From Halapricum desulfuricans (GTDB taxonomy: Archaea; Halobacteriota; Halobacteria; Halobacteriales; Haloarculaceae): 64,000 nucleotides of DNA. Where the stretch lies: NCBI RefSeq assembly GCF_017094525.1, contig NZ_CP064788.1, positions 2,527,030 to 2,591,029 of the forward strand. The letters are read 5' to 3'. The translations under genes were made by a program, and so were the position numbers. Position 1 is the stretch's first letter. Each line of letters starts with the position of its first letter. The notes beneath the pieces are model-generated. The model was given only the letters and a program-made list of their open reading frames with translations. It made no database searches and was not told the DNA's origin. Positions 36,435 through 57,211 of the stretch are shown here, in pieces.

Positions 36435-36514
36435 ATACTGCCGGCTGTAACAAACTGAAGGAATTCGCCACCCCGGGGTGGCGAATATCTTTACGAACTT
36501 ACAGCCGGCAGTAT
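36435..36514. repeat. 80-bp double-palindrome element, copy A1
   Basis: Exactly 80 bases with the symmetric layout 16-12-12-12-12-16. The outer 16-base arms ATACTGCCGGCTGTAA / TTACAGCCGGCAGTAT are perfect reverse complements. The inner 12-base arms ATTCGCCACCCC / GGGGTGGCGAAT are also perfect and abut. The two 12-base stretches between the stems are unpaired. Copy A2 at 42261 differs at two positions only. It lies 58 bases upstream of the HD gene. No transposase is encoded, so a MITE-like element or a structured regulatory element are the options. Confidence 0.85.
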
Positions 36515-42260: not shown

Positions 42261-42340
42261 ATACTGCCGGCTGTAACAAACTGAAGGAATTCGCCACCCC
42301 AGGGTGGCGAATATCTTTACGAACGTACAGCCGGCAGTAT
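42261..42340. repeat. 80-bp double-palindrome element, copy A2
   Basis: Same length and layout as copy A1 at 36435, differing at two positions: the first base of the right inner arm (A instead of G) and the first base of the right outer arm (G instead of T). Both changes fall at the inner tips of stems, so the hairpins stay intact. It lies between the divergent ArsR-type regulator and the lipoprotein gene. No target-site duplication longer than one base is visible. Confidence 0.85.
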
Positions 42341-54066: not shown

Positions 54067-56556
54067 ATGGAGTTGATCATCACCGAGAAAGACAACGCCG
54101 CACGGCGAATCGCCGACATCCTCAGCGACGGCGGGGCCGACGCCGAGCGGCGCAACGGCGTCAACGTCTACGGGTGGGGCGGCAAGCGCTGCGTCGGGCT
54201 GTCGGGACACGTCGTCGGCGTCGACTTCCCCGGGGAGTACAGCGACTGGCGGGACGTCCAGCCCGTCGAGTTGATCGACGCCGAGGTCGTCAAATCGCCC
54301 ACCCGGGAGAACATCGTCGCGGCGTTGCGGAGCCTGGCCCGCGAGGCCGACGAGGCCGTCATCGCGACCGACTACGACCGCGAGGGCGAGCTGATCGGCA
54401 AGGAAGCGTACGAGCTCATCCGCGCGGAGACCGACGTCCCCATCAAGCGGGTCCGGTTCTCCTCGATCACCGAAACCGAGGTCAAGCAGGCGTTCGCCGA
54501 GCCCGACGATCTCGATTTCGATCTGGCCGCCGCGGGCGAGGCACGCCAGATCATCGACCTCATCTGGGGAGCGGCGCTGACGCGCTTTCTCTCGCTGTCC
54601 GCCCGGCAGCTGGGCGACGATTTCATCTCCGTCGGTCGCGTGCAGTCCCCGACGCTCAAACTGATCGTCGACCGCGAGCGCGAGATCGAGGCGTTCGATC
54701 CCGACGACTACTGGGAGATCGCCGCCGAACTGGCGAAAAACGGCACGAGTTTCGAGGCCCAGTACTTCTACGACGACGACGGCAGTGAAGCAGAGCGCAT
54801 CTGGGAGGAGAGCGAGGCCGAGTCGGCCTTCGAGCGCCTGCACGAACAGGCGACAGCGACAGTCGAGAGCGTCCGTCGCCGTACCCGGACGGACGCCCCG
54901 CCCGCGCCGTTCAACACCACCGCGTTCATTCAGGCCGCCGGCTCGCTGGGCTATTCCGCCCAGCGAGCGATGTCGATCGCCGAGGAGCTGTACACCGCCG
55001 GGTACGTCACCTACCCGCGGACGGACAACACGGTCTATCCCGACGACCTCGATCCCGAGGACCTGCTCGAATCGTTCACCGAGACCAGCCCCTTCGGCGA
55101 GGACGCGGCGGCGTTGCTGGGCAGCGACGACATCGAGCCGACTCGCGGCGACACCGAGTCGACAGACCACCCGCCGATCCACCCGACGGGGGAGTTCCCC
55201 GACCGAAACACCCTCTCCGAGGACGAGTGGGAGGTCTACGAACTGATCGTCCGGCGGTTCTTCGCGACGGTCGCCGAGCCAGCCACCTGGGAACACCTGC
55301 GCGTGGTCGCCGACGCCGATGGCCTGCGGCTGAAGGCCAACGGCAAGCGTCTGATCGAAGCCGGCTATCACGAGGTCTATCCCTACTCCAGCGCCAGCGA
55401 GACCCACGTCCCCGACGTCCAGGAAGGCGAGCAACTGGCGATCGAGGACGTCGATCTGCAGGCCAAACAGACCCAGCCGCCACGACGGTACGGCCAGTCG
55501 CGGCTCGTCTCGAAGATGGAGGAGATGGGCATCGGGACCAAGGCGACTCGCCACGGGACGATCGAGAAGCTATACGATCGCGGCTACATCGACGGCGACC
55601 CGCCGCGTCCGACGGCGCTGGCGAAGGCGGTCGTCGACGCCGCGGAGGCGTTCGCAGAGCTGATCGTCAGCGAGGAGATGACCGCCCAGCTGGAAGAAGA
55701 CATGACCGCCATCGCCAACGGCGAGGCCACCCTCGAAGACGTGACCGACGAGTCCCGGGAGATGCTCGAGCGCGTCTTCGAGGAACTGCACGACTCCCGC
55801 GAGGCGGTCGGCGAGCACCTTCAGGAATCGTTAAAGGAAGACCGGACGATCGGCTCCTGCCCGGAGTGTGGATCGGACCTGGTGATTCGGAAGTCCCGCC
55901 ACGGGTCGTACTTCGTCGGCTGTGACGGCTACCCCGAGTGTGAGTACACGCTCCCGCTGCCCTCGAAGGGCGAGCCGCTGGTCATGGACGAGACCTGCGA
56001 GGAACACGACACCCATCACGTCAAGATGCTGGCCGGTAGCGACACGTTCGTCCACGGGTGTCCGCGCTGTCAGGCCGAGGCCGCCGACGAGAACGAAGAC
56101 CGGATCATCGGGGACTGTCCCGAGTGTGGTGACGAGCACGGCGGCGAACTGGCGATCAAGCACCTCCGCTCCGGATCACGGCTCGTCGGCTGTACCCGCT
56201 ATCCGGAGTGTGAATACTCGCTGCCGTTGCCCCGCCGCGGCGAGATTGAGGTGCTAGACGAGCGCTGTGAGGAACACGACCTCCCGCATCTGCGTATCCT
56301 CGATGGCGATGACGACGATGATCCCTGGGAGTTGGGCTGTCCGGTCTGCAACTACGAGGCGTATCAGGCCCGCAATGCTGTCGAGGACCTCGAGGATCTC
56401 GACGGTGTCGGCTCGAAGACTGCGGAGAAACTGTCGGCAGCCGGCGTCGAGTCACCCGCTGATCTGGCCGGAGTCGAACCTGACGCAGTCGCTGAACAGG
56501 TCCGAGGCGTGAGCGCCGAGCAGGTTCGCGACTGGCAGGCTGATCTCGAAGCCTGA
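54067..56556 (+). CDS. topA: DNA topoisomerase I (type IA)
   Basis: 829 residues. Toprim domain with E7 (LIITEKDNAARRI) and DYDREGE (102-108); catalytic Tyr in GYVTYPRTDN (Y316); then HPPIHPTG and the barrel domains. The C-terminal third has four-Cys zinc ribbons (CPECGSDLVIRKS...CDGYPEC; CPECGDEHGG...CTRYPEC; and CPVC) and ends with a helix-hairpin-helix (LDGVGSKTAEKLSAAGVESPADLAG). It relaxes negative supercoils. The stop codon TGA at 56554-56556 shares its last base with the start of the 80-bp element copy B. Confidence 0.95.
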   Translation: MELIITEKDNAARRIADILSDGGADAERRNGVNVYGWGGKRCVGLSGHVVGVDFPGEYSDWRDVQPVELIDAEVVKSPTRENIVAALRSLAREADEAVIATDYDREGELIGKEAYELIRAETDVPIKRVRFSSITETEVKQAFAEPDDLDFDLAAAGEARQIIDLIWGAALTRFLSLSARQLGDDFISVGRVQSPTLKLIVDREREIEAFDPDDYWEIAAELAKNGTSFEAQYFYDDDGSEAERIWEESEAESAFERLHEQATATVESVRRRTRTDAPPAPFNTTAFIQAAGSLGYSAQRAMSIAEELYTAGYVTYPRTDNTVYPDDLDPEDLLESFTETSPFGEDAAALLGSDDIEPTRGDTESTDHPPIHPTGEFPDRNTLSEDEWEVYELIVRRFFATVAEPATWEHLRVVADADGLRLKANGKRLIEAGYHEVYPYSSASETHVPDVQEGEQLAIEDVDLQAKQTQPPRRYGQSRLVSKMEEMGIGTKATRHGTIEKLYDRGYIDGDPPRPTALAKAVVDAAEAFAELIVSEEMTAQLEEDMTAIANGEATLEDVTDESREMLERVFEELHDSREAVGEHLQESLKEDRTIGSCPECGSDLVIRKSRHGSYFVGCDGYPECEYTLPLPSKGEPLVMDETCEEHDTHHVKMLAGSDTFVHGCPRCQAEAADENEDRIIGDCPECGDEHGGELAIKHLRSGSRLVGCTRYPECEYSLPLPRRGEIEVLDERCEEHDLPHLRILDGDDDDDPWELGCPVCNYEAYQARNAVEDLEDLDGVGSKTAEKLSAAGVESPADLAGVEPDAVAEQVRGVSAEQVRDWQADLEA

Positions 56557-56635
56557 TACTGGTGGCGGTACCGTTTCGAACTGAGCTGGCACGCCGTCGT
56601 GCCGGATATCGTTCCGAACGTATCGCCACCAGTAT
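56556..56635. repeat. 80-bp double-palindrome element, copy B (diverged)
   Basis: Again exactly 80 bases in the 16-12-12-12-12-16 layout and with ATACTG...CAGTAT ends. The outer arms are ATACTGGTGGCGGTAC / GTATCGCCACCAGTAT, differing from copy A1 at four left and five right positions; four changes are paired (positions 7, 8, 12, 16), and the remaining one makes a G-T pair. The inner stem is different in sequence but keeps GGCACG / CGTGCC. The right inter-stem ATCGTTCCGAAC resembles ATCTTTACGAAC of copies A1 and A2. It lies between topA and the lrp-like gene. Confidence 0.8.
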
Positions 56636-56722
56636 GATAGTGGCTGCTCCCGGTGCCCCTCGACTGGCATGGCGTCTCAGGGATGGGAAATCCTTTTGCT
56701 CTCGGTGGCCTCTGAAGCCGAT

Positions 56723-57211
56723 ATGGACCTCAGCGAGGAACTGCTGGAGTTGCTCCAGGAGAACGCCCGGTACAGCACCGATGATCTCGCCCGCATGACC
56801 GACGCCGATCCCGAAACGGTCGAGGCGGAGATCGAGCGCCTCGAATCGGAAGGGATCATCCGGGGCTATCAGGCCGTCGTCGACTTCGAGGAGACGGAAC
56901 GCGAGCGCGTCCGGGCGATCGTCGAACTCAACGTCACGCTCGACCGGGAGACGAGCTACGGCGACATCGCCGAACGGATCGTCCAGTTCCCCGAAGTGCA
57001 GGAACTGCGGCTGGTCAGCGGCGACTACGACTTCGACATGGAGGTCGAGGGCGACTCGATGCGGGAAGTGAGCCACTTCATCAGCGACAAGATCGCCCCG
57101 ATCCCCGAGATCACCCAGACGGTGACTCACTATCACATGGACACCTACAAGACACGGGGCATCGTCCTCGGTGACCACGACGAGGACGATCGACTGTCGG
57201 TCTCACCATGA
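56723..57211 (+). CDS. Lrp/AsnC-family transcriptional regulator
   Basis: 162 residues. N-terminal winged helix DLSEELLELLQENARYSTDDLARMTDADPETVEAEIERLESEGIIRGYQAV, then a RAM ligand-binding domain (VRAIVELNVTLDRETSYGDIAERI ... LVSGDYDFDMEVEG). It overlaps the aminotransferase gene by 4 bases (ATGA at 57208-57211), so it probably regulates amino-acid metabolism including its partner. The ATG at 56723 is chosen over the in-frame one at 56669: the AT-rich aatccttttgc about 27 bases upstream would give a leaderless transcript. Confidence 0.9.
   Translation: MDLSEELLELLQENARYSTDDLARMTDADPETVEAEIERLESEGIIRGYQAVVDFEETERERVRAIVELNVTLDRETSYGDIAERIVQFPEVQELRLVSGDYDFDMEVEGDSMREVSHFISDKIAPIPEITQTVTHYHMDTYKTRGIVLGDHDEDDRLSVSP

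Follow-up and report, generated by a model that had tools for sequence, protein, structure and literature searches.

A 78-bp haloarchaeal MITE behind topA of Halapricum with a repeatedly compensated inner stem

The topA gene of Halapricum desulfuricans (DNA topoisomerase I; + strand, positions 54067-56556 of the window, by which we mean the whole stretch of 64,000 nucleotides analysed), recognised from its open reading frame and topoisomerase domains, is followed by an 80-bp sequence with palindromic arms at 56556-56635. What is this sequence, and for whose benefit is its pairing kept? The sequence-only reading had described it as the third copy of an element with ATACTG/CAGTAT ends, in which base changes in both stems pointed to selection for folding. 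Re-reading of the sequence confirmed the 80-bp length and the ends, here as well as at 36435-36514 and 42261-42340; three 80-mers with such ends occur in the window, as compared with none expected by chance from dinucleotide shuffles. The outer stem, defined by sequence and pairing (5' arm, 56556-56571, and 3' arm, 56620-56635, both + strand), differs from that of copy A1 at positions 7, 8, 12 and 16 on both strands with pairing kept, and has a G-T pair at position 13, exactly as had been claimed. The inner stem, defined by covariation (5' arm, columns 29-40, at 56584-56595, and 3' arm, columns 41-52, at 56596-56607, both + strand), is indeed rewritten and mostly pairs, but its pairing is not complete: it has G-A at 30/51, C-T at 39/42 and a T-G wobble at 32/49. 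In the common B-type copies, with T30 and A49, 30/51 and 32/49 are both paired, so that the topA copy, which departs from them there, has begun to decay. The stems of the proposed 16-12-12-12-12-16 layout are present, but the inter-stem stretches of 12 nucleotides thought to be unpaired are paired in part (columns 22-26 with 55-59). The element is immediately followed, in tandem with topA, by a gene (56669-57211) whose product we take by eye to be an Lrp/AsnC-like regulator.

The flanks of the 80-mers define what the element is. In nearly all of the 70 copies with exact ends in this genome, the same base is found on either side within T-N-A. When the terminal A and T are counted into this duplication, the element becomes TACTG...CAGTA, 78 bp in length, with a 3-bp TNA target duplication. 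Of 208 non-redundant copies drawn from many genomes, 200 are flanked by identical TNA triplets (TCA in 92, TGA in 87, TTA in 12 and TAA in 9), the insertion target is itself palindromic (C-T-S-A-G), and neighbouring tandem elements have one TGA in common. At topA, the element proper, TACTGG...CCAGTA of the B subfamily (56557-56634, no strand assigned), lies between a left TGA (56554-56556, + strand), which is the stop codon of topA at the end of its reading frame, and a right TGA (56635-56637, + strand). The orthologous topA end of a congeneric genome is an empty site with only one TGA: it reads GAAGCC-TGA-TCGTGG, as compared with GAAGCC-TGA[TACTGG...CCAGTA]TGA-TAGTGG here. The terminal inverted repeats are 15-16 bp long, with TACTG and GGC invariant, and the element, with its 70 exact and about 90 total copies, is too short for a transposase gene. 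Given the terminal repeats, the multicopy spread, the TNA duplication and the empty site, the 80-mer family is a family of MITEs, a nature that had been missed earlier together with the target duplication.

The topA copy holds no special position as a third copy, since the 70 copies with exact ATACTG/CAGTAT ends are spread over the genome and the family extends across haloarchaea. The genome searched is a single 2.89-Mb contig of the genus Halapricum (2,893,909 bases). The genome-wide collection of homologues with a covariance model, which had been proposed as a check, matched at least about 90 places, degenerate copies included; as the model was built from 28 diverse copies and 150 candidates were scored, this number is a lower bound. 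Fourteen A-type copies have an identical top score, which indicates recent amplification of this type. One of them, recognised by its ends, duplication and model score, is the copy at 36436-36513 in the window, and the copy at 42262-42339, also of the A subfamily by its ends and duplication, is two substitutions away from it (no strand is assigned to either). Each of at least three inner palindromes (the A, B and TTCGGCACGACGTCGTGCCGAA types) has multiplied in this one genome. The copy at genome positions 417871-417950 (L017:1072-1151) is a hybrid with an A left end and a B right end. Another A-type copy (L083:1008-2498, genome positions about 2844057-2845547) is interrupted by a 1403-bp insertion sequence, which we take to be ISH8-like, flanked by the 10-bp duplication CTTTACGAAC; five copies of this insertion sequence are present. 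Additionally, a different repeated sequence (ATACGGTCGGTTGTA ... AAGTCTGTTCCGGATCGATCGCATCCGTTA) adjoins or encloses five MITE copies (L005, L006, L023, L034 and L056) and may be a second family of mobile repeats that serves as a target.

The central claim of the sequence-only reading, covariation of the inner stem, held in the wider alignments. When 158 gapless copies, 128 of them unique, were oriented with a profile, several base-pair types were seen at the inner pairs 31-50, 32-49, 34-47, 35-46, 36-45 and 38-43. In an alignment of 28 sequences, 9 of 10 inner pairs show two-sided changes, and the inner stem scores 0.452 for covariation, a value that falls to 0.199 on shuffling and to no more than 0.138 when the partners are slid. 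When changes were counted on the branches of a tree made with FastTree, with states assigned by parsimony, the true partners in the inner stem changed together 14 times on internal branches; shifted partners did so 1-2 times and shuffled ones 2.8 times on average, none of 500 shuffles reaching 14. These and the other branch counts are approximate, as the tree was drawn from 80 columns and includes some hybrid copies. The 14 compensated changes are spread over 12 internal branches, on several of which that pair alone is altered, including CG to GC swaps, so that they do not stem from block exchange between subfamilies. These results support the conservation of inner-stem pairing across genera through real compensatory changes.

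Covariation in a repeat is by itself no proof of a functional RNA, and the free decay of resident copies naturally separates selection on the element from selection on the host. On short terminal branches, the inner stem shows 3 compensated and 57 uncompensated changes, as compared with 14 and 30 on internal branches (Fisher p 0.0003), and on terminal branches the inner stem changes no more slowly than the loops do (7.5 vs 7.0 changes per site). Thus, decay is unchecked in resident copies, and the pairing of the inner stem persists in the lineages that are still spreading, the only ones in which selection for it is seen. This combination points to the inner stem as a contributor to mobility or persistence of the MITE. 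The usual view is that MITEs require no more than their ends; the repeated compensation of the inner stem, mainly in spreading lineages, suggests that the middle of this element matters for mobility as well. The selection for folding proposed earlier thus stands as a constraint at the level of the mobile element, but not as a locus-level or RNA function, with which the uncompensated losses, the lack of a preference for G-U over A-C and the random orientation do not agree.

Taken as a whole, the data are, with high probability, best explained by a MITE that has spread with TNA duplication and whose inner palindrome is apparently kept for the element and not for the host. A DDE transposase, which may resemble the IS1031-type branch of the IS5 family, a maker of TNA duplications, would mobilise it. 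A paired inner stem would improve transposition or persistence, for example by being extruded as a hairpin or cruciform, or by offering a dyad-symmetric site to a transposition factor. After insertion the copy would be free to decay, and copies on stop codons would survive well, as the duplication would restore the stop. The more specific proposal, that of a haloarchaeal DDE-type system that needs a folded inner stem, with structure and not sequence selected at each move, and that favours stop codons rebuilt by the duplication, we put forward only tentatively.

The alternative that survives best, and that we regard as a possible though not a favoured one, is that the inner palindrome is a dyad-symmetric site in double-stranded DNA for a homodimeric protein, either the transposase or a host factor, so that the half-sites shift together without any folding. 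The palindrome is symmetric with zero gap, G-U is not favoured over A-C, and the inner-stem sequence is partly lineage-specific (CGCGACC..GGTCGCG, CGACACC..GGTGTCG and CGGACC..GGTCCG in different genomes), all of which would fit such a site. However, positions 34-36 accept several base-pair types, and the A, B and TTCGGCACGACGTCGTGCCGAA palindromes, all distinct, have each multiplied in one genome; a single specificity would not permit as much. The coexistence of these three or more palindromes leans towards structure over a binding site. Templated mutation of the quasi-palindrome, by which one arm is copied from the other at replication and compensation arises from mutation bias without selection, is a weaker rival and an improbable one. 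Palindromes are known substrates for templated arm copying, and the double changes that are common here, CG to GC and AT to CG, cannot pass through G-U; yet such a process should act in resident copies too, and compensated changes make up 3 of 60 on short terminal branches vs 14 of 44 on internal ones.

It is very unlikely that the element is a transcribed RNA element or an mRNA 3'-end structure kept through host gene expression, even though its + strand, which folds far better than shuffled sequences as DNA (z -6.7), would form a very stable fold as RNA (-48 kcal/mol, z -7.8), and even though many copies lie directly behind stop codons. The orientation relative to the upstream gene is random (26 same, 30 opposite), and many copies are inside predicted ORFs or in divergent regions. 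Wobble is symmetric among the unique sequences (G-U 54, A-C 49), with no strand-specific bias, and the decay of resident copies looks neutral. A search of Rfam found no family at the gathering threshold, the best match reaching 17 bits as compared with a threshold of 69. The RNA-element and terminator readings were rejected on random orientation, wobble symmetry and the decay of resident copies. Finally, the suggestion that A and B are the ends of two different active transposons, alike through shared transposase recognition, which alone could explain the outer repeats, can be dismissed with hardly any doubt, because each 80-mer, bearing a TNA duplication of its own, is an element complete in itself, the sole long element with these ends is the interrupted MITE copy, and A/B hybrids exist, so that A and B are subfamilies of one short element.

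We searched for the transposase of this MITE. This genome, the genus and about 1.3 Mb of related loci yielded no autonomous element with matching ends, and searches with the end pattern in the genus, the family and viral contigs gave only degenerate MITEs, related elements and chance matches. The DDE_Tnp_1 (PF01609) and DDE_3 (PF13358) loci of this genome have other ends, with no insertion sequence bearing TACTG ends among them, and DDE_Tnp_1_2 (PF13586) had no match in this genome. A 1491-bp candidate with matching ends was rejected as the autonomous partner: it is the MITE copy at L083, split by the 1403-bp ISH8-like insertion sequence with its 10-bp duplication. The likely type of transposase is thus read from the TNA duplication, no partner element having been found. 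TNA duplications of 3 bp, with a preference for TNA targets, characterise the IS1031 subgroup of the IS5 family (PMC12016507). The element resembles that subgroup in the 3-bp TNA duplication; unlike it, members of the subgroup encode a transposase and have other ends (e.g. GAACCTGTCTAGTATCT for ISLrh).

The insertion at the topA stop codon is not an isolated case. In 64 of 164 testable copies, the duplication is the stop codon of a predicted gene. Among non-coding insertion sites, 56% coincide with a stop codon, as compared with 16% of the other TSA sites in the same flanks, and when only TSA targets were compared with sites 1-60 bp downstream, weighted by motif, the values were 71% vs 47% (p about 1e-5); the sizes of these enrichments are approximate, the gene calls being crude. 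There is a strong enrichment of insertions that sit precisely on stop codons. Most simply, stop codons would fit the target and the duplication would rebuild the stop, making the insertion harmless, although a bias in targeting towards stop codons is possible. By taking a gene's stop codon as its 3-bp target, as it often does, the element has a simple way of inserting without harm.

Small, multicopy, folding and non-autonomous palindromic repeats are familiar from bacteria as REPINs, Correia, RUP and BOX elements. REPINs rely on Y1 (RAYT) enzymes and produce no TNA-type duplication, and Correia and RUP elements duplicate TA. The element described here is like all of these in being a small multicopy folding repeat and differs from REPINs, Correia and RUP elements in its duplication. 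The MITEs of Haloquadratum walsbyi and Halobacterium have ends in common with a named transposon and, where lengths are stated, measure about 400-520 bp (PMC3119063, PMC10264941), and some of those in Haloquadratum lack a working partner transposase in the genome (PMC3119063). Like them, the present element is short and coding-free, with terminal inverted repeats, target duplications and, presumably, mobilisation in trans; unlike them, it is 78 bp long, has no partner found and carries a covarying inner stem. PATEs have neither terminal inverted repeats nor target duplications (PMC3119063). Thus, the element shares with PATEs and IS200-IS605 relatives a palindromic, haloarchaeal and non-autonomous nature, but differs in having both of these features. 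Similar in size is the small mobile repeat (SMR-B) HqIRS41 of Haloquadratum walsbyi C23, an 80-bp sequence reported without target duplications from one strain (PMC3119063). The two are alike in the 80 bp, in terminal inverted repeats unrelated to known transposons and in the lack of a transposase, and unlike in that our element has a TNA duplication and occurs in many genera, a comparison made by description. A duplication at HqIRS41 could have been overlooked, as it would appear as a 1-base repeat beside a palindromic end. Our literature searches found no named 80-bp haloarchaeal family with TNA duplication. As far as the literature shows, with HqIRS41 compared by description only, this is a new MITE family with an unusual, repeatedly compensated inner stem.

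A strict pattern detected copies in 51 of the 146 genomes searched in the family and in 50 of the 392 in the order; the named hosts include Haloarcula, Halomicrobium, Halapricum, Halorhabdus, Halobellus, Haloplanus, Natronomonas, Natrinema, Halostagnicola, Halostella and Halovenus. Of 296 genomes sampled across the phylum, 9 had matches, every one of them within the order, and the 224 sampled genomes outside the order had none. Viral contigs yielded no full copy; similar stretches occur in plasmids of Haloarcula, Halomicrobium, Natribaculum and Haloplanus (12 records). Several copies have a shortened inner stem (about 70-76 bp in total), so that the full 12-bp stem is not required. Shortened forms whose inner palindrome lacks 8 bp at its centre (e.g. 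ATTCGCCACCGCGAAT) are recurrent, and were seen in Haloarcula rara (L148, L187) and in genomes G013, G017, G022 and G027. In another haloarchaeal genome, related elements with TACTGTCGGAC ends, about 93-97 bp long, lie on stop codons (L294:661-757 and 1481-1573), the host genes there being, as we judge by eye, DnaJ-like and HAD-phosphatase-like. Collapsed remnants, such as TGA-TACTGCCGGCAGTA-TGA, have lost the inside and have their ends fused with the duplication kept (L285:1507-1526; G096, C5:93086 and C27:21719), and look like scars of palindrome deletion or excision.
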